In this document: one piece after another, positions 15,596 to 23,605 of the stretch | Numbering within the stretch: position 1 is the stretch's first letter | Layout of the letters: each line of letters opens with the position of its first letter | Virus record (IMG/VR): IMGVR_UViG_3300047299_000035 | Span: 1-23,605 of that record | Direction: 5' to 3' (one strand) | Source: a virus | Length of the DNA stretch: 23,605 nt | The notes under the pieces: model-generated | Databases searched by the model: none | Told to the model about the DNA's origin: nothing | Seen by the model: only the letters and a program-made list of their open reading frames with translations | Translations under genes and position numbers: made by a program

Positions 15596-16054
15596 ATGAA
15601 CCAAGCAAAACAATACACCCGCAAATCCGCAAACATTCTGCTTGAAGCAGCTGAACTTCAAGAACGTAAAGGCCAAGATTATCAAAATCCATTGAGCCGA
15701 GTACGCCAAGCAGATCATTATCCGCGTGGCGTATATACTATTCTAGACACGATTAATGGTAAGATGCTTCGTATGTATTCTGTATTGGAAACTATGGAGC
15801 AAGGTGGTAAAATTAATTTTGAATCGGTTGAAGATTCTGCTATTGACATGATTAACTATGCATCATTCCTTGTTGCATATATGCGTGGTCAAATCGATGG
15901 ACAGACACCCGATAAAGATATTTTTAATCGCCGCCTAAGTGCAGACACTATTCAAAGTGCATTGATTCCATCTGACTTTCAACCAGAGAAAAAAGCAACC
16001 CTTAATGCACGCCACTTTACAGATATTGTAGCCCAAGCAAGAAACGCAGAATGA
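15596..16054 (+). CDS. DUF1599-like (nucleotide modification associated) protein
   Basis: A 152-residue protein starting at ATG 15596, chosen because GAGGA lies about eight bases before it and it begins just after the previous stop; an upstream in-frame ATG at 15563 would overlap that gene. The pattern RKGQDYQNPLSRVRQAD, then a middle helix LDTINGKMLRMYSVLETM, and ESVEDSAIDMINYASFLVAYM (EDSxxDxxNY) matches the DUF1599 'nucleotide modification associated domain 1' type, related to MazG-like all-alpha folds. The EDSxxD motif would bind metal. The C-terminal 50 residues are extra. It overlaps gp42 by ATGA. A role in removing or preparing nucleotides for the modified-base pathway is likely but unproven. 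Confidence 0.6.
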   Translation: MNQAKQYTRKSANILLEAAELQERKGQDYQNPLSRVRQADHYPRGVYTILDTINGKMLRMYSVLETMEQGGKINFESVEDSAIDMINYASFLVAYMRGQIDGQTPDKDIFNRRLSADTIQSALIPSDFQPEKKATLNARHFTDIVAQARNAE

Positions 16055-16812
16055 TGTCAACATACGACTATAACAATATGAAAACTGTTCACGATATTCG
16101 TCAGGAATTTGCTCGTCTTTACAAAGAAAAGAAGTTTGTAACCGATAAATCAGGTGTAAAAACACTTGAAATCATGGGCGCAAGTTTCTGGGCTAATTCG
16201 CCTTTGATCTTTGGCGCAGTCAATGAAGACTATGTGCAGCGTGAACTCGATTGGTATAAATCACAATCGTTAAATGTCAACGATATTCCAGGTGGACCAC
16301 CACAGATCTGGAAACAAGTTGCTGATAAAGATGGTATGATTAACTCCAACTATGGTTGGTGTATTTTCTCTGAAGAAAATAATCATCAGTTTGCTCATGT
16401 AGTTACTGAACTTGAAGAACGCCCAGATTCACGTCGTGCAACCATGATTTACACACGTCCAACTATGTGGGGTGATCACAATAAGAATGGCCGTTCAGAT
16501 TTTATGTGCACAAATAGTGTTCAATATATGATTCGCAATGATCGTGTATATGCTATTGTACAAATGCGAAGTAATGATGCTTGGGCTGGTTATCGTAATG
16601 ACTATGCTTGGCAAAAGTATGTTCTTGAAGAAGTTCGTAATGAACTTCAATATCGTGGTAAGTACTACACTACTGGCGAAATCTTTTGGAATGTAGGTTC
16701 ACTTCATGTGTATGAACGTCAATTCTATTTGATTGATCATTACATTAAGACTCGTGAATTATCTATCACTAAGGAAAAATATGACCAGCTCTATGGACAA
16801 ACGACTGTCTAA
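16051..16812 (+). CDS. 42: dCMP hydroxymethylase (gp42)
   Basis: A 253-residue homologue of T4 gp42, which adds hydroxymethyl from methylene-tetrahydrofolate to dCMP. Blocks nearly identical to T4: VKTLEIMGASFWANSPLIFG, then YVQRELDWYKSQSL, DIPGGPPQIWKQVA, INSNYGWCIFSE, MIYTRPTMW, SDFMCTNSVQYMIR and WNVGSLHVYERQFYLIDH. The catalytic cysteine is C153. The residue that distinguishes dCMP enzymes from thymidylate synthase (Asn in ThyA, Asp in T4 gp42) is D184 in YRNDYAW, arguing against ThyA. The product implies that phage DNA contains 5-hydroxymethylcytosine. The start may be either ATG of the ATGATG at 16051/16054. It overlaps its neighbours on both sides. Confidence 0.93.
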   Translation: MMSTYDYNNMKTVHDIRQEFARLYKEKKFVTDKSGVKTLEIMGASFWANSPLIFGAVNEDYVQRELDWYKSQSLNVNDIPGGPPQIWKQVADKDGMINSNYGWCIFSEENNHQFAHVVTELEERPDSRRATMIYTRPTMWGDHNKNGRSDFMCTNSVQYMIRNDRVYAIVQMRSNDAWAGYRNDYAWQKYVLEEVRNELQYRGKYYTTGEIFWNVGSLHVYERQFYLIDHYIKTRELSITKEKYDQLYGQTTV

Positions 16813-17248
16813 ATGGGATAAGCGATACATTGAATTGGCAAAACAAATTTCTACTTGGAGTAAAGATCCAAGTAGAAAGATTGGTGCGGTTGCTGTAGGT
16901 TCTAAAGGTCAGATTCTATCGCAAGGATATAACGGTTTTCCACGTGGAATCCTTGACCTACAAGAACGATATGATAACCGTGAAGTAAAATATAAGCATG
17001 TTGTACATGCAGAAATGAATGTAATCTATAATGCAACGTTCAGCGGCGTTTCTCTTGATGGTGCTTCTCTTTTTGTATACGGTCTCCCAGTGTGCAACGA
17101 ATGCGCAAAGGGAATTATCCAGGTTGGTATAGAACGAGTTGTCATATATACAGATGAGCTTGTGCCAACGATTTGGACAGATGCTTTTAATTTGACTTGG
17201 GAAATGTTTAAAGAAGCCGGTGTAAAATGCAATTGGATTCAAACATGA
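16781..17248 (+). CDS. dCMP deaminase family zinc enzyme
   Basis: A 155-residue deoxycytidylate deaminase-type protein, converting dCMP to dUMP for dTMP synthesis. Zinc ligands are H76 in HAEMN, with catalytic E78, and C105/C108 in LPVCNECAKG. The substrate-side motif SRKIGAVAVGSKGQILSQGY then NGFPRG is typical. The ATG at 16781 is chosen because AAGGA lies six bases upstream; it overlaps gp42 by 32 bases, and a further in-frame ATG lies at 16793. At 155 residues it is shorter than T4 Cd (193). In an HMC phage it competes with gp42 for dCMP and balances the T and HMC pools. Confidence 0.85.
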   Translation: MTSSMDKRLSKWDKRYIELAKQISTWSKDPSRKIGAVAVGSKGQILSQGYNGFPRGILDLQERYDNREVKYKHVVHAEMNVIYNATFSGVSLDGASLFVYGLPVCNECAKGIIQVGIERVVIYTDELVPTIWTDAFNLTWEMFKEAGVKCNWIQT

Positions 17249-17427
17249 AATGTTATTGCTATACATGCAAGAGTAAAGAAGTAGACGAAAGAGGATTTTC
17301 TCCTGTGATGTATACCTTTATTGTATGTCCTGAATGTGGTAATAAACGTTGTCCAAAGTCTACAGATCATAATTTCAAATGCACAAATAGCAACGAACCT
17401 GGACAAGAAGGAAGTAGATATAAATGA
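17245..17427 (+). CDS. 60-residue zinc-ribbon protein
   Basis: A small Cys-rich protein with two C-x-C/C-x2-C knuckles (CYCYTCKSKEV and VCPECGNKRC), compatible with a zinc ribbon. The tail CPKSTDHNFKCTNSNEPGQE is of a kind I recall from other phage mini-proteins. The ATG overlaps the deaminase stop (ATGA) and the stop overlaps the glucosyltransferase start, so it belongs to the modification operon. It may bind DNA, RNA or a protein partner. The specific role is unknown. Confidence 0.6.
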   Translation: MKCYCYTCKSKEVDERGFSPVMYTFIVCPECGNKRCPKSTDHNFKCTNSNEPGQEGSRYK

Positions 17428-18629
17428 AAATAGCAATTATCATGGGCCGTGGCATCGAAGGATGTGGTGTTACTAAGTTTACTGTTGAACAAACAAAATG
17501 GATGGCAAAGAATAGTCATGATTTTATTGTATTTTCTTCTAAAGATAAATCGTGGACTCGTAAGAATGCCCATGACGTTTCAAATGTAGTGCAACTTAAG
17601 TTTGCAAAGCAAGAAGAAATGAATAAACTAATTGAAGGTTGTAATAAATCCGATGTAGTTATTATCAATAGTCTTCCTTCACTTAGTCATCCCGAAGAAG
17701 CAATCAATCAGTTCAAACGAGCTCTTGAAGAAATTCAAAAACCAATTGTTCTAGTTCAACACGATCATTCATCTTTATCGATTAAGCGTAATGCTGCTAT
17801 TGAAGAAGCTGTAAAACGTGCTAATATTCTATTTGGTCATAGTGATACAAACGACTTTGCAAAATACGTTGGCGAAGTTACCGGTGGAGGTGGACTTGCT
17901 GGATTCTTTGGTGACGATGAATCAAAGACTATATTGAACTTCCAGCCGGGCATTGACTTTGATTCTATTCGTGCTAAGTATTGGCTTGATATCGATCAGA
18001 CTCGTCCATTAGAACACAAATGGATTGGCCGTACCACAAGTTGGAAAGGCTATGTTCAGATGTTTAAATTCCATAATGAATTCTTACGTCCTGGTGGTTA
18101 TATCACTACATTTGAAGGGATTGAAAAGTCTCCAGCTTATCTAGATTTTAGAAAGCTTTCTGAATTTCATGGAATGATTGATAAAGATATCAATACCATT
18201 TCACTTGAAAAAGATCAACCAGCATATGTGTTTGGTCCTTATATCAATGAACAAATGCTGTATAGAATGGCTTCAACTGGATTTGGTTATCAATTGTCTA
18301 TTCTAGATGAACGATTTATTCAACGATCTATTGAATACACTCACTGTGAATTGGCTGCTGTTGGTGTAGTACCAGTCTTCCGTAAGTTATATGGTGAACG
18401 TTGTACACACCGCAAATATGGTGATAAACTAATCAATTGCAAGAATACTGGAACGATTTGGTTAGATGATACTAACATGCAACCAGCTTATGATTTGGTC
18501 AACAAACTAACCAAAGATAAAGTCATGCGAAACGAATATCGTGAAATGGCATTTGAGTTCTATAAAGAACATCAAGATTCACAATATACATTTGCTGAAA
18601 TGATGAAACTTATTCAAGATAATTTATGA
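17424..18629 (+). CDS. agt: DNA alpha-glucosyltransferase homologue (T4 AGT family)
   Basis: A 401-residue protein that matches T4 alpha-glucosyltransferase (400 residues) along its length. AGT transfers glucose from UDP-glucose to 5-hydroxymethylcytosine in DNA and protects against restriction. Corresponding blocks include GRGIEGCGVTKFTVEQ (T4 ARGLEGCGVTKFSLEQ), VQHDHSSLSIKRN (T4 YQHDHSVLSLRRN), WIGRTTSWKGYVQMFKFH, STGFGYQLSILDERFIQRS with the following EYTHCELAAVG, and EFYKEHQDS. The GT-B fold donor-site residues in the GFGYQLS and EYTH segments are kept. It follows the zinc ribbon and overlaps UDP-glucose dehydrogenase by ATGA, which may mean a different donor sugar. AAGGAAG lies before the ATG. 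Confidence 0.9.
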   Translation: MKIAIIMGRGIEGCGVTKFTVEQTKWMAKNSHDFIVFSSKDKSWTRKNAHDVSNVVQLKFAKQEEMNKLIEGCNKSDVVIINSLPSLSHPEEAINQFKRALEEIQKPIVLVQHDHSSLSIKRNAAIEEAVKRANILFGHSDTNDFAKYVGEVTGGGGLAGFFGDDESKTILNFQPGIDFDSIRAKYWLDIDQTRPLEHKWIGRTTSWKGYVQMFKFHNEFLRPGGYITTFEGIEKSPAYLDFRKLSEFHGMIDKDINTISLEKDQPAYVFGPYINEQMLYRMASTGFGYQLSILDERFIQRSIEYTHCELAAVGVVPVFRKLYGERCTHRKYGDKLINCKNTGTIWLDDTNMQPAYDLVNKLTKDKVMRNEYREMAFEFYKEHQDSQYTFAEMMKLIQDNL

Positions 18630-19420
18630 ACATTTGTATAGTTGGTCATGGCGTTGTTGGTAAAGCTGTACAACATGGTTTTACTAATAATTTGACACAT
18701 CTATATGTTGTAGATCCTCAATATGATACACACATAGATTCGTTGTATGATCTATTCAAACCTGATTTAGTTTTCGTATGTGTTCCAACGCCAACTACAG
18801 AAGATGGAATAGACTCTTCTACGATTGAAAGTGTGCTAAAGCAAATTAGTTTGCGTGAACATAAACCAATAGTCGTAGTTAAGTCTACTATCACTCCTGA
18901 TGTGTGTGATAGACTCTCAACAATATACCCACGTGTTGTATATAACCCTGAATTTCTGACTGAAGCAAATGCTATAAATGATTTTGTTAATCCGGATTTT
19001 ATTTTATTAGGTGGAGAAACGAAGGATGTATTAGAAGTTGCTGAAGCATACTCACAGTATTCTTTATGTAACCCATGTCCAGTTTATATGGTTGATGAAA
19101 AAACTGCATGTTTAGTTAAATACACTTTGAATAGTTTTCTTGCAACTAAGGTTGTATTTTTTAACCAGATGTATGACATATATAAAAAGTCTGGCGCAGA
19201 TATTACTTGGGAAAAATTTATAAAGATCATATCTATGGATGACCGAATTGGTGATACTCATATGGTTGTTCCAGGTAAAGATGGTATGCGTGGATTTGGA
19301 GGCATGTGCTTTCCAAAAGACACTAAAGCTATTATTCATTATGCTAAAACAGTGGGTGCACCATTTAGTATTCTTGAAGAAGTCGTTGACATAAATTATA
19401 AATTGCGAGATATGAAATGA
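18626..19420 (+). CDS. UDP-glucose/GDP-mannose dehydrogenase, short phage form
   Basis: A 264-residue NAD-dependent sugar-nucleotide dehydrogenase; the typical reaction is UDP-glucose to UDP-glucuronate. NAD-binding GHGVVG (residues 7-12), then VCVPTP, VVVKSTITP, the family signature YNPEFLTEANAINDF (106-120), VKYTLNSFLATKVVFFNQ (164-181) and the catalytic cysteine C228 in GGMCFPKD. The usual C-terminal UDP-binding domain (total 390-450 residues) is absent, so only the NAD and central dimerisation domains are present; short forms occur in other phages. It sits between the DNA glucosyltransferase and the C5-methyltransferase homologue, with ATGA overlaps on both sides, suggesting a role in DNA glycosylation. 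Exact sugar substrate uncertain. Confidence 0.85.
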   Translation: MNICIVGHGVVGKAVQHGFTNNLTHLYVVDPQYDTHIDSLYDLFKPDLVFVCVPTPTTEDGIDSSTIESVLKQISLREHKPIVVVKSTITPDVCDRLSTIYPRVVYNPEFLTEANAINDFVNPDFILLGGETKDVLEVAEAYSQYSLCNPCPVYMVDEKTACLVKYTLNSFLATKVVFFNQMYDIYKKSGADITWEKFIKIISMDDRIGDTHMVVPGKDGMRGFGGMCFPKDTKAIIHYAKTVGAPFSILEEVVDINYKLRDMK

Positions 19421-20601
19421 AACATGCATCTATTGTACCATTGATTGGTGGAGAAACTCTTGGACAAATTAACGCTTTTGGCACAAAGCCTGATTACTTA
19501 CTTTCGTACACCCCCTTTTCTAATAATGATTCGCACTTGGTTAATTACCTTAAAGACGTTCCTTACATCTTACTCGACCAAGGCGGAAAGCATCCTGGGT
19601 ACGTTGATATTGTTAATGCTGTGTGCCCTTGTGCTGGTCTCAGCTCTTTATCTCCGTCGGCAAGCTCAGATTCTGCTGTTAACGACTGGATGATGATCAC
19701 TGCAAAATATGTACTTGAGGAAATGAAACCTCAAGTATTTTGGGGAGAGAATGCTCCTCGATTTGCAGGTGAAATGGGTAAACCTATTGTCGCAAAATTA
19801 CATAAACTAGCACGTGAAAATGGATATACTATGTCCATTTATAGGACTAAGTCCCTATTACATGGACTAAGTCAAGTTAGAGAACGATCTTTCTATTTCT
19901 TTTGGAAAGGTGATAAAGTTCCCGTATTCAAGTACTTTGACGAGTATCGTATCAGTATTGAAGATCAGATTAACTTAGTCAAACCTGAATCTACGCAACA
20001 AGAAGTGACTAATAAGAAGATTCCAAGTAAAGACGATCCTTACTATCGCTATGTTCTTGAGGTTATGCATAAGGGGATTAGTCATTCCGAATTCCAGAAA
20101 ACTCTAACAAAGTCTGCCGATGCAATGCATTATATTGAAGAGAATGGCCATAACTATCGTATGTTGAAACCATTCTTTGAGAAAGAAGGTTATACAAAAC
20201 TAGCAGATAAAATGGAAGCAATTCAGGCAAAACTTGATGCTGGTGGAAACATCATGAGGCGTGCTTCTTATATTCCAAAGGACTATATTGGAGCTTTCGT
20301 TGGACATCTTCCTGTGTCCATGACCCATCATTCTGAAGATCGATACTTGACTTATCGTGAATGTATGACTATTATGGGTTTACCTCAGGACTTTGAGTTA
20401 TTGAATCCTGCAAAAAACTTAAATCATGTATGCCAAAACGTGCCAGTCCATACTGCAACTGATATGGCTATGGAGATTAAAGCCACATTAGAGGGTAGAC
20501 GTGATATGATGAATAGTACATTGATGTATCAGTTCAATCCACAGAAAACCTACGAACTACGAGATCCAGAAGAGTTAAGTAGTTTAGAATCGTTCATGTA
20601 A
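19417..20601 (+). CDS. C5-cytosine methyltransferase homologue with atypical motif I
   Basis: A 394-residue protein of the Dcm/C5-methyltransferase type. Catalytic motif IV is CPCAGLSSLS (C72), motif VI is ENAP (111-114) and motif VIII is QVRERSFYF (153-161). Late segments such as YLTYRECMTIMGLPQDFELL and CQNVPVHTA fit motifs IX and X. The AdoMet-binding motif I is poorly conserved: instead of F-x-G-x-G-G the N-terminus reads SIVPLIGGETLGQ. The roughly 100-residue insert (about 180-300) may be the target-recognition domain. It ends the modification operon at a strong terminator. In a phage with HMC, the C5 position of cytosine should already be blocked, so its substrate or activity may differ from plain methylation. 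Confidence 0.75.
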   Translation: MKHASIVPLIGGETLGQINAFGTKPDYLLSYTPFSNNDSHLVNYLKDVPYILLDQGGKHPGYVDIVNAVCPCAGLSSLSPSASSDSAVNDWMMITAKYVLEEMKPQVFWGENAPRFAGEMGKPIVAKLHKLARENGYTMSIYRTKSLLHGLSQVRERSFYFFWKGDKVPVFKYFDEYRISIEDQINLVKPESTQQEVTNKKIPSKDDPYYRYVLEVMHKGISHSEFQKTLTKSADAMHYIEENGHNYRMLKPFFEKEGYTKLADKMEAIQAKLDAGGNIMRRASYIPKDYIGAFVGHLPVSMTHHSEDRYLTYRECMTIMGLPQDFELLNPAKNLNHVCQNVPVHTATDMAMEIKATLEGRRDMMNSTLMYQFNPQKTYELRDPEELSSLESFM

Positions 20602-20628: not shown

Positions 20629-20636
20629 TATAAATA
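20629..20636 (+). promoter_or_regulatory. T4-type late promoter
   Basis: An exact TATAAATA (T4 late -10 consensus) directly after the terminator and 27 bases before the next start, whose ribosome site is TGGAG. Position and context strongly support late, virion-related expression of the three genes that follow. Confidence 0.75.
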
Positions 20637-20662: not shown

Positions 20663-21481
20663 ATGGCAGCGTCAGAAGGCGTAGATCTTGAGTGGTGTAT
20701 TGTTGAAAAGATAAAAATTAGAAACAATCTACTTAAGAAATACACAAAATCATATTCGAGCAATATTGACCGACAGGCCGAGCAGTGCGTTGAGCACATA
20801 TACAAATTTGCAAAGAATGCTAAAGTTCAGGCTTGGCATTCTGATGATGCTTCCAATCCATTTGGCATAGCAATATATGCTAAACCAGAACCAAAGACCG
20901 ATATTGTATTAAAGATAGGTAATAAAGTATATTCTACTTCAGTTAAAATGGCTGGTGGAGTACAATTGGCGTCGGGTCAAGGCGGATCTACTGCTGAACT
21001 ATTTGAAGCAGCAGCTACTAATATTCCTTCTTCACAAAAAAGCAAAGTTCTAAAGTCAATTGTTAATGAATTGAGAACTATGCCTACACGATTATTGTCT
21101 GAATCGAATAAAGCAAGAATTTTAGAAGAAGCAAAACCAAAGGTTATAGAAGAATTTATTAAGAATGGTAAAATCATTCAAGATAAAAACTATGAATATT
21201 GGCTACAGAATAACAAAGAAACATTAATGCAATCGTTGTTAGAATTCATTAATGAAGACAAAGAATTTTTAAAAGCTCTTTTAAAAGAAGCAGTTACCGG
21301 TGAACTATCGCTTGCTTCTTATAGAGGAGCCGTTGCTGATAGTATCATATCACCAAAGGGTTTTTATTTAGTGAATGATACATACATCAATAGTATTATG
21401 TCAAAGGTCAAGTTCGATATCCGCGGTAAGTCAAGAAGTGGTATCACAGGCGTTGCGTTTAGAATAGATTTAAAAGGTTAA
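20663..21481 (+). CDS. Late protein with PD-(D/E)XK-like signature
   Basis: A 272-residue unknown protein, first gene of the late operon. Residues about 66-100 read PFGIAIYAKPEPKTDIVLKI then NKVYSTSVKMAGG. An acidic residue in TDIVL (D80) followed 15 residues later by S-V-K (K95) resembles the strand-loop-strand core of PD-(D/E)XK nucleases, with S93 in the place of the middle acidic residue. The following QLASGQGGSTAE and long helices (about 115-215) could complete an alpha/beta fold. The next gene has a similar core. No capsid-targeting start is seen here. The ribosome site is GGAG before the ATG. A structural or nuclease function is open; the missing acidic residue could mean an inactive fold. 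Confidence 0.6.
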   Translation: MAASEGVDLEWCIVEKIKIRNNLLKKYTKSYSSNIDRQAEQCVEHIYKFAKNAKVQAWHSDDASNPFGIAIYAKPEPKTDIVLKIGNKVYSTSVKMAGGVQLASGQGGSTAELFEAAATNIPSSQKSKVLKSIVNELRTMPTRLLSESNKARILEEAKPKVIEEFIKNGKIIQDKNYEYWLQNNKETLMQSLLEFINEDKEFLKALLKEAVTGELSLASYRGAVADSIISPKGFYLVNDTYINSIMSKVKFDIRGKSRSGITGVAFRIDLKG

Positions 21482-21484
21482 TAC

Positions 21485-22414
21485 ATGTTTGCTACGTTTA
21501 TAGATTTCTTAACAGAAGAAGCTGCGTTATCTTCTAATGATAAAGGTGTTCTACACGAGTTATTAGTTGGTAAAGAATTGAATAAAGGCAAGCACATGTC
21601 GCCCGAGGCAGAACGTACTCACAATATCATTAAGTCTAAGACATCGAAAGATGAATACGACAATGCTGTAAAATTAGCAAAAGGTACTGCTGAACATTTA
21701 AGACAAAAGTTTGGTAAAGACATTGCGTCAGCACATTGGTCTTCTAAGCCAGGTGACATTGGTAGAATTACCGGTGTAGAAGAATCACAACAAGAAAACT
21801 CTGCAGATATTATTCTTCGTCATAAGAATGGTGCCCATGTTGGAATATCTCTTAAGGTAACCAAAAAGAAAAATGGTAAAGTTCCAGTTGGTAATCCTGG
21901 CGCAAAACAAACAGATCAACAATTGGGGACTAATGCAACTCAACATTATGAGAATGCTCGTGCTGCACTTGTTAAAAAACATAAAGTACTTCAGGGAAAG
22001 ACTAATAAAGAAATGAAAGAGATCATTAAGAGTGATCCAAAAATTGGTGCTGATGCTCAGAAAATGTCAAATGAAGCTATTGGCAAGATTCGCGATGAAT
22101 GGCATCATGCATTAACACAAATGCATCCTAAATCATTAAGCGATCATCTTAGAAATAATCTATTGCATGCCCACGCAACAAAGTTACCATTATATAAAAC
22201 CACAACTGGTGGAACTGGTGATGATCATAGTGTAGAAACAGAACATTCTCATACTTCACACGATGAGATCTTAAACGATCATAAGAATATTACAGTTCAT
22301 AAAGCAGGTAATAACTCTATTGAATTTAAACACAATGGTAAGACTTTCTTGCGTCATAGACTTAAACCTGAAAGTACTCCTATTGCTACGGCATTAAAAG
22401 GATCTGCAGAATGA
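21485..22414 (+). CDS. Late protein with predicted capsid-targeting start and nuclease-like core
   Basis: A 309-residue unknown protein. The N-terminus MFATFIDFLTEEA resembles T4 internal-protein capsid-targeting sequences (MKTYQEFIAEA), with L-T-E fitting the gp21 prohead protease site L/I-x-E. After that, GVLHELLVGKEL supplies a helix with a conserved-type glutamate (E25), and residues 105-125 (NSADIILRHKNGAHVGISLK) show D108 and S-L-K124, a PD-(D/E)XK-like pattern shared with the preceding protein. The central part is helical, and the C-terminal third is His-rich and polar. It overlaps the next gene by ATGA. Restriction-like nuclease or DNA-end-binding roles are possible; the packaging prediction is inference. 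Confidence 0.6.
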   Translation: MFATFIDFLTEEAALSSNDKGVLHELLVGKELNKGKHMSPEAERTHNIIKSKTSKDEYDNAVKLAKGTAEHLRQKFGKDIASAHWSSKPGDIGRITGVEESQQENSADIILRHKNGAHVGISLKVTKKKNGKVPVGNPGAKQTDQQLGTNATQHYENARAALVKKHKVLQGKTNKEMKEIIKSDPKIGADAQKMSNEAIGKIRDEWHHALTQMHPKSLSDHLRNNLLHAHATKLPLYKTTTGGTGDDHSVETEHSHTSHDEILNDHKNITVHKAGNNSIEFKHNGKTFLRHRLKPESTPIATALKGSAE

Positions 22415-23605
22415 AATCACTAAAGACGTTTATAACTGAAGAAAAGAATACTCACATGGAACACGTTGAAGATTTAGTCTTCAACGAAGGTGTTGAGGGC
22501 GCACGTAAAGCTATTAATTTTCTTCGTTCATTAAGAGACATGTTGGCCGGACACTCGAAGTCTGCTATTACATCGACTGTTAAATGGGATGGCGCACCTG
22601 CTATTTTTGCAGGTATTGATCCACGAGATGGAAAATTCTTTGTTGCTAAAAAAGGTGTATTTAATAAAGAACCTAAAGTTTATAAAACACCTACAGAAAT
22701 AGATACAGATACATCGGGCGATTTAGCAGATAAACTAAAGATTGCCCTAAAAGAATTCTCTAAACTTGGTATTAAATCTGGCGTTTACCAAGGTGATCTT
22801 ATGTTTACCGATGATAAGAAAGTAGAGATGATAGATGGCGAAAAGTATATAACATTTCATCCTAATACAATTGTTTACGCTATACCATATAATTCTGATC
22901 TTGGAAAGAAAATAAGATCTGCAAAAATTGGTGTAGTATGGCATACTACTTATGAAGGTAATTCGTTTGAAAGTATGAGAGCTTCATTTGGTAAGACTAT
23001 AGTTGATAAGTTTAACGCAGTGTCTTCTATTTGGATGGATGATGCAAACTATAAAGACTATTCAGGAACTGCAACATTTACAGCAGATGAAACAAAGCGA
23101 ATAACAGAAGTGTTATCACGCGCAGGAACGATTTTCAATTCAATCAGTGCTCAGACTTTAAATGGGATTAGCAACGATGAAGACCTCTTACTCGCAGTTA
23201 AAACTTTTAATAATTCGAAGATTAGAAAGATGGAACAGATTGACAATACTAGAAGTCATGTCAAAGAATTGTTCCACTATATACACGATAAATATCAAAA
23301 AGAAATCGAAAAGAAGAAAACTCCTGCAGGTAAGCAAAAACAAGAAGACGCCCGCAAAAGAATTTTAAGTTTCTTTGCTCATCATGATCAAAATCAAATT
23401 GTTGCTATTTTTGATTTGGTTAATGTATTAGTTGAAGCAAAGAAAATGATCATCAACAAGATGAATCAAGCAGGACACATAAACACTTTCCTAAAGACAG
23501 CAAATGGATTTAAAGTAACTGGCGTAGAAGGCTTTGTTGCGATAGATCATCTTAGTGGTGGTGCTGTTAAGATAGTAGATCGCATGGAATTTAGTTATGC
23601 GAATT
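22411..23605 (+). CDS. Ligase-like covalent nucleotidyltransferase with predicted capsid-targeting start (3' partial)
   Basis: The frame runs off the window after 398 codons. The N-terminus MKSLKTFITEE is close to the T4 capsid-targeting sequence MKTYQEFIAEA, with I-T-E as a possible prohead protease site. Nucleotidyltransferase (DNA/RNA ligase) motifs follow: motif I KWDG (K58, the expected AMP-accepting lysine), a FFVAKKGVF strand, motif III GVYQGDLMF (about 124-132), IIIa-like NTIVYAIPY, and motifs IV/V as EGFVAIDHL then AVKIVDRMEF near the window end. Similar proteins (DUF6267-type, as I recall) are conserved in cyanophage-like T4 relatives without known function. Between motifs III and IV lies a large helical insert. 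It is the third gene of the late operon. Ligation, capping or RNA repair are all possible. Confidence 0.7.
   Translation, partial: MKSLKTFITEEKNTHMEHVEDLVFNEGVEGARKAINFLRSLRDMLAGHSKSAITSTVKWDGAPAIFAGIDPRDGKFFVAKKGVFNKEPKVYKTPTEIDTDTSGDLADKLKIALKEFSKLGIKSGVYQGDLMFTDDKKVEMIDGEKYITFHPNTIVYAIPYNSDLGKKIRSAKIGVVWHTTYEGNSFESMRASFGKTIVDKFNAVSSIWMDDANYKDYSGTATFTADETKRITEVLSRAGTIFNSISAQTLNGISNDEDLLLAVKTFNNSKIRKMEQIDNTRSHVKELFHYIHDKYQKEIEKKKTPAGKQKQEDARKRILSFFAHHDQNQIVAIFDLVNVLVEAKKMIINKMNQAGHINTFLKTANGFKVTGVEGFVAIDHLSGGAVKIVDRMEFSYAN

Follow-up and report, generated by a model that had tools for sequence, protein, structure and literature searches.

The closest described system is that of bacteriophage T4, where the internal proteins IPII and IPIII share a ten-residue N-terminus, MKTYQEFIAE/A (here and below a slash marks the cut), with a hydrophobic residue at position 4, an aromatic residue at 7, Ile or Leu at 8, and Glu at 10 (Mullaney and Black 1996, via PMC9026906). 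In tests with IPIII, positions 4 and 7 mattered for targeting and positions 8 and 10 for processing, and Asp at position 10 allowed targeting without processing (PMC9026906). Here, we describe a similar arrangement in IMG/VR virus record IMGVR_UViG_3300047299_000035, analyzed over its complete length of 23,605 bases (the window). The gene at 22411 starts MKSLKTFITE/E, in exact register with IPII and IPIII at positions 4, 7, 8, and 10, and has all T4-type features tested, including a length of ∼10 residues. The adjacent gene at 21485 starts MFATFIDFLTEEA (MFATFIDFLTE/E) and is one residue longer than the T4 sequence. A first-pass annotation had given the same two starts, which we confirm, and had stated that both keep the T4 length; this is exact for the gene at 22411, and the gene at 21485 has the one extra residue. 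We put at roughly three in four the probability that both proteins bear a working T4-type capsid-targeting sequence (hereafter tag) and are packaged in the head of this phage. Tagged genes are adjacent in T4 as in the window. The cargo differs: IPII and IPIII are 100 and 193 amino acids long and of another kind, whereas the cargo in the window is 300–400 amino acids long, enzyme-like, and also exists in tagless forms.

The window is the entire record, so it represents only part of a larger, T4-like genome; it encodes DNA polymerase, clamp, clamp loader, UvsX, and a DnaB-like helicase. Its right end is occupied by a three-gene operon on the + strand (20663–21481, 21485–22414, and 22411–23604), with a 3-base gap between the first two genes and a 4-base overlap between the two tagged genes, both of which are open. 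The last reading frame runs off the contig end, and its 398 amino acids are the part read. The features are as follows.

21485..21517, + strand: MFATFIDFLTE (11 codons), an N-terminus resembling a capsid-targeting sequence, with the cut predicted to follow E11; nearly in the T4 register
22411..22440, + strand: MKSLKTFITE (10 codons), an N-terminus resembling a capsid-targeting sequence, with the cut predicted to follow E10; strict T4 register
21485..22414, + strand: tagged nuclease-like protein (protein 2), PD-(D/E)xK-like, 309 amino acids; from invariant residues, an AlphaFold2 model, and structural matches
22411..23604, + strand: tagged DUF6267 protein, RNA-ligase-like nucleotidyltransferase, 398 amino acids read; from PF19782, motifs, and the model of a relative (L010)
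22582..22593, + strand: KWDG, nucleotidyltransferase motif I of the DUF6267 protein (K58); invariant in 30 aligned homologues
20663..21481, + strand: untagged PD-(D/E)xK-like protein, operon gene 1, 272 amino acids; phrog_22045, E 7e-32
20629..20636, + strand: T4-type late promoter TATAAATA ahead of the operon; exact match, identical in the relative G001

Among 33 + strand genes picked from the list of open reading frames (ORFs), a motif scan of the kind the first-pass annotation proposed found one strict match (22411), one near match (21485), and no others. In a control with the T4 genome, the strict pattern matched IPII and IPIII and nothing else. The homologue of protein 2 at locus L035 has the strict register (MKTFISFLTE/A). 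Codons vary at fixed tag residues of DUF6267 proteins, for example GAA or GAG at E10; a conserved DNA or translation-start signal in place of a protein motif is not favored for this reason.

Across related loci, the tag recurs on neighboring genes. We assembled 160 viral contigs and 7 isolate stretches, 167 loci in all. Clustering at 80% identity reduced their 2137 ORFs to 1448 representatives, of which 67 bear the strict motif at the first start codon and 104 at any allowed start. Within −3 to +4 genes of DUF6267, 95 of 669 clusters bear the motif versus 7 of 620 further off (Fisher p 5e-21, which is a guide only because clusters of one family are not independent). Matches are spread over 17 single-linkage families, two of them (2 and 113) seemingly by accident. 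Tagged families include DUF6267, three groups akin to protein 2, and an FDIDDTLF family that is HAD-like by eye and has no Pfam match. At L047, small tagged proteins are in tandem (MKTFNEFIVE/A and MKTFNEYITE/S). Among isolates, Methylophilales phage Melnitz and Stenotrophomonas phage DLP6 have a tagged DUF6267. In G001, a long relative, a third tagged gene with a DUF6321 domain (MIKFSEFIDE/G) is directly behind DUF6267. This gene (C1:61838-62641, L105) also has a basic GLWDNIHAKRKRI stretch resembling an untagged protein of HTVC008M. Elsewhere, a 357-amino-acid protein of DSL-LC02 (OR032571, 74943-76016) starts MKTYREFVAEA, which is nearly the T4 tag itself. Tagged proteins of ∼105 amino acids with a common GDFNG-type sequence, in DSL-LC02 (155023-155358), S-SZBM1 (122311-122640), and S-SCSM1 (44203-44535), are possible further cargo.

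Comparisons of homologues show that the tag is detachable. Among 165 DUF6267 ORFs, the tag is present with Glu 10 in 94 (L080 and L081, which have Ile as residue 7, are counted here), and 28 keep aromatic residues at positions 4 and 7 and lack Glu 10 (e.g., MFSFKGFITK), so that cleavage, at least there, is not expected. Another 33 are tagless, with the start codon no more than eight residues from a conserved H anchor (typically MAKNTHLEH). The remainder comprise two cyanophage members (L138 and L139) with another N-terminus of 21–22 residues ahead of the anchor; one nine-residue variant (L283, MKFTEYLTE/A); six others, including four with a short L-x-E start like MELLNE/D; and one without the anchor. 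The Glu-less group, 28 of loci L222-L273, starts MF[SNT]FKG[FY] and is perhaps targeted and uncut. Tagless DUF6267 proteins, starting within eight residues of the anchor, therefore begin about where the tag would be cut off, as in the pair MKSLKTFITE/EKNTHMEH and MKNTHLEH. Relatives of protein 2 show the same pattern, with MKTFKEYITE/MATANTVLS (L083 and L084) and MKTFREFILE/MATANTVLS (L056) versus tagless MATANTILS or MTANTILS; in 10 of 10 tagless protein 2 homologues checked, there is an in-frame stop within 75 bases upstream. HTVC008M has MAKKGLWYY in place of MIKFSEFIDE/GKRGLWDN of G001 (likeness by eye).

Tags also shift between members of the operon. Operon gene 1 of the window is untagged and its Melnitz homologue starts MQGFKTFLSE/A. 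In S-SM1, Syn9, and DSL-LC02, DUF6267 is untagged and a cytidylyltransferase is tagged. In S-CRM01, a kinase (MISFDQFLSE/K) and a small protein (MKKLDQFLTE/K) are behind a tagless DUF6267. Homologues lacking the first 12 residues, which the first-pass annotation had taken as a sign against targeting, thus do exist among DUF6267 proteins, and in several such phages other operon genes are tagged, which indicates a movable tag and does not speak against targeting. A tag that is an integral part of the DUF6267 fold is not favored, because 33 of 165 members are without it and model confidence over it is low, with a predicted local distance difference test (pLDDT) below 50 at residues 1–17 of the DUF6267 relative L010. 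In the model of protein 2, residues 1–15 are below 50.

The protease that would cut the tag, and its likely specificity, are conserved in relatives. The T4 major capsid protein gp23 is cut at an L/I-x-E site. In the gp23 of 10 of 10 phages (T4, S-SM1, Syn9, DSL-LC02, Melnitz, HTVC008M, DLP6, G001, G002, and G003), L/I-x-E is found by eye at the place of the T4 site, with examples FLTE/A, ILTE/T, FLSE/A, and FLGE/I, and on this basis the protease of the relatives is predicted to have L/I-x-E specificity. A gp21-type (S77) prohead protease is encoded in 13 of 14 related-phage records, G001 included; the fourteenth is a 71 kb fragment. The first-pass annotation had looked to such a protease, and this expectation is borne out in the records of relatives rather than in the window, a genome fragment.

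Mass spectrometry of other phages' virions provides a further line of evidence. For S-CREM2, 52 virion proteins are listed with coordinates (PMC10665884). Across its 219 annotated genes, the strict tag is present in 4 of 52 detected versus 1 of 167 undetected proteins (p 0.012). Tagged and detected are an S-adenosylmethionine (SAM) hydrolase (MKDFDSFLEE), ORF13 (MKDLHSFLTE), an APH-like kinase (MKRFDAFLTE), and a cytidylyltransferase (MKNFSSFLTE, 3 peptides). In addition, the S-CREM2 virion protein ORF12 (OR473000, 7704-10313, L284) has an embedded LRFASFMAE/A before residue 26, and ORF136 starts MQTFSMFFSE/D. ORF12 is annotated as a Cas9/Csn1 nuclease, a label that is doubtful because there is no Pfam match at E 0.01. 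In S-SM1 virions, T4-GC190, a cytidylyltransferase, was detected (PMC3037559), and its gene starts MKKFSAFLNE/A. In S-SCSM1 virions, the NMNAT QFG06348.1 was detected (PMC9602691); its gene (88819-90048) starts MKSFLQFLKE/A. In S-SZBM1 virions, cytidylyltransferase S-SZBM1_140 was detected (PMC9146016), with the nine-residue variant MRFRQFIIE/A, and its tagless DUF6267 neighbor, S-SZBM1_141, is absent from the list of 30 detected proteins. A tagged cytidylyltransferase or NMNAT is thereby detected in four phages, one with the nine-residue variant. Virions of S-CRM01 hold a kinase, according to the introduction of PMC10665884. Enzymes of T4-like cyanophages (cytidylyltransferase/NMNAT, SAM hydrolase, and kinase) are therefore known that are both tagged and detected in virions, and in S-SM1 and S-SZBM1 the cytidylyltransferase gene is directly after DUF6267, which is tagless there. 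The accessible text of the Melnitz paper (PMC9004378) yielded no virion mass spectrometry.

The T4 capsid-targeting sequence is a known principle; what is new here is a tag of this type that is movable and is borne by enzymes of Kyanoviridae-like phages. No mention of the tag was found in the accessible text of the virion papers on S-SM1, S-CREM2, S-SCSM1, and S-SZBM1. In literature mostly outside subscription journals, and seen in part, capsid targeting and cyanophages occurred together only in the T4 review (PMC9026906); an earlier notice outside T4 is possible.

Several observations speak against targeting and release of the window's proteins, among them the Glu-less and tagless DUF6267 groups described above. 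IPI and Alt of T4, which also have propeptides, are not scored by the strict pattern, which for this reason misses true cases, and HTVC008M has zero strict matches. The residue after the predicted cut in DUF6267 proteins is mostly E, D, or Q versus A in T4. In S-CREM2, 48 of 52 detected proteins are without the strict tag, and a looser motif does not significantly favor the detected ones (4 of 52 versus 7 of 167, p 0.25; one of the seven undetected matches is strict). Both neighbors of the S-SCSM1 NMNAT are annotated as virion proteins and yet are untagged, and S-SZBM1_191, tagged and 105 amino acids long, is absent from the 30 proteins detected in that phage. Given untagged virion proteins and undetected tagged ones, the tag is neither the sole mark of a virion protein nor, by detection, sufficient. 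The S-CREM2 authors considered that the enzymes may be inside the head or may have stayed with the virions through purification (PMC10665884), and carry-over rather than packaging was also raised for S-SCSM1 (PMC9602691). No tagged DUF6267 protein was seen in the accessible parts of published virion data, all of which come from phages other than that of the window.

These points bear differently on three alternatives. The one that survives best, which we nevertheless consider unlikely, is that the motif targets proteins to the prohead and stays uncut, so that the proteins are not injected and serve in the head or its assembly, for instance as part of the core or in packaging. The 28 DUF6267 proteins with aromatic residues and no Glu 10, and the behavior of Asp 10 in T4, are what it would predict; retention of Glu 10 in 94 of 165 loci with varying codons, and cargo that resembles nucleic-acid and metabolic enzymes and not core proteins, speak against it. 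Less probable again is that the motif forms a short amphipathic helix that does something else, such as holding together a complex of operon products or aiding folding, and resembles the T4 sequence by convergence. Concentration of the tag around one operon is as might be seen for a docking helix, but the tagged proteins of S-CREM2 are in two separate gene clusters and were found in virions, tagless homologues start near the predicted cut, and both models give the tag low confidence. A coincidental likeness among N-termini, in phages rich in Lys, Phe, and Glu, is very improbable and is ruled out for the motif set as a whole by shuffles of residues 2–16 (200 rounds; mean 0.775 and maximum 3 versus the 67 observed), even though a few strict matches look accidental, such as two of three in S-SZBM1, and the rate at internal ATG positions of ten genomes (9 of 8147) predicts ∼4 matches among 3658 start candidates, where 18 are seen. 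Capsid targeting, as first proposed, is supported by the register, recurrence on nonhomologous neighbors, tagless homologues, gp21 and L/I-x-E sites in relatives, and virion data of other phages.

The predicted cargo is enzyme-like. The DUF6267 protein matches PF19782 (E 1.2e-107), and its score of 360.9 bits is far over the gathering cut-off of 27. Across 30 homologues, K58, W59, D60, G61, E374, G375, V377, and K388 are invariant, including an E-G-x-V motif, and the K, D, and G of KWDG are also invariant in a separate alignment of nine. We take KxDG to be motif I of the covalent nucleotidyltransferase/RNA ligase superfamily. The L010 model (pLDDT 80.6) has RNA or tRNA ligases in its first nine structural rows (Z 7.7–6.3), with Hsp70 in row 10 at 6.3; a Naegleria RNA ligase leads (7.7), followed by REL1 and T4 Rnl2 (7.2) and then tRNA and DNA ligases. 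The best Foldseek match is a DNA ligase (E 0.099). These moderate matches suggest an RNA-ligase-like nucleotidyltransferase, and the ligase-type reading is the better supported because of the conserved motifs. Libraries assign no function to this family (PF19782, phrog_455), whose member in the window is tagged and RNA-ligase-like, and no mention of DUF6267 was found in the literature searched, mostly outside subscription journals.

Protein 2 has no match at E 0.01 in 50,697 phage records, and its relatives were found in viral contigs. Its AlphaFold2 model (pLDDT 79.4) has no Foldseek match at E 0.001; HinP1I is first (0.0077), followed by pyrrolysyl-tRNA synthetases from 0.056. In VIA-align, HinP1I (Z 7.5), Dna2 (6.0), MspI (5.9), Cas4-like, and AddAB structures lead, all presumably PD-(D/E)xK nucleases, with unrelated helical proteins from Z 4.5. 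E25, D108, and S122-x-K124 are invariant across 16 aligned proteins, and analogous residues of operon gene 1 (E10, D80, S93, and K95) are invariant, together with P77 and T79, in nine aligned homologues. Neither protein 2 nor the DUF6267 protein had a significant sequence match among solved structures. Moderate matches thus suggest that protein 2 is a PD-(D/E)xK nuclease. It has the predicted fold and conserved E, D, and SxK residues in common with HinP1I and MspI, and differs in having S-x-K for E-x-K, no significant sequence match, and Z below 8. As all Z values for both models are under 8, both folds are likely and not proved; the nuclease-like and ligase-like labels of the first-pass annotation gain support from the conserved motifs and moderate structural matches. 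An iterated profile links protein 2 to the TANT-type group, in agreement with single-pass searches (E 5e-25 to 7e-15). By single-pass search with protein 2 of the window alone, the groups of L030 (0.09) and of the 405-amino-acid L074 protein (0.82) are not supported; these connect to it through L035 or L084.

The exact late promoter TATAAATA is present as claimed, but it lies upstream of the gene at 20663 and therefore serves the two tagged genes only as part of the operon. In the window alone it does not occur significantly more often than by chance (3 copies versus 2.44 expected). Summed over 10 phage genomes, it lies up to 70 bases ahead of an ORF 89 times in sense versus 16 in antisense orientation, and the exact octamer is in 4 of 11 upstream stretches of such operons (window, G001, Melnitz, and S-CREM2). 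The upstream sequence of G001 is identical to that of the window, with 98% identity in protein 2 and 88% in DUF6267. The operon may be transcribed late from TATAAATA. In several of loci L006-L085, GGTATAATA or TATAATA is within 20 bases upstream of the DUF6267 start codon and could be a promoter. Preceding the operon, a gene run at 16051-20601 resembles DNA hypermodification, with a thymidylate-synthase-like gene (16051-16812), an alpha-glucosyltransferase (17424-18629), a C5 cytosine methylase (19417-20601), and a UDP-glucose-dehydrogenase-like gene; the phage seems to modify its DNA as well.

In the mechanism that we propose, the N-terminal ten to eleven residues would, late in infection, dock the precursors on the core scaffold of the prohead as it forms, and gp21 protease would cut after L/I-x-Glu, freeing nuclease-like and RNA-ligase-like proteins inside the head. 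After DNA fills the head, the enzymes would leave with it into the next host and act on nucleic acid ahead of any phage gene expression. Docking on the scaffold and biochemical activity in this phage are expected by analogy; cleavage of the tag is probable, injection with the DNA slightly less so, and a counter-defense or repair role of the packaged enzymes is tentative. That role would most plausibly be counter-defense or repair of genome ends or RNA. Counter-defense is favored because an SAM hydrolase with the same tag is in virions of S-CREM2, whose authors suggest this function for it (PMC10665884). Combined with DNA modification, a nuclease-like and ligase-like pair would be well placed to attack unmodified DNA early, or to repair DNA or RNA that has been cut.

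More broadly, the odds seem about even that a swappable ten-residue cargo tag defines a set of injected enzymes across Kyanoviridae-like and other T4-like phages, forming a kit for counter-defense and nucleic-acid repair that is delivered in advance. On this reading, its members would be a restriction-like nuclease, an RNA-ligase-like protein, FDIDDTLF proteins, an NMNAT-like transferase, SAM hydrolase, a kinase, and the large Cas9-labeled protein, with operon members gaining and losing the tag. Virion proteomics of cyanophages repeatedly finds enzymes that are either cargo or carry-over, and a short tag could tell which. DUF6267, a family with no assigned function, gains a concrete hypothesis, that of a ligase-like enzyme delivered with the genome. 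If the cargo-tag reading is true, N-termini would predict the injected proteome of uncultured phages, and the tag would make the injected enzymes of marine and freshwater phages predictable from sequence.

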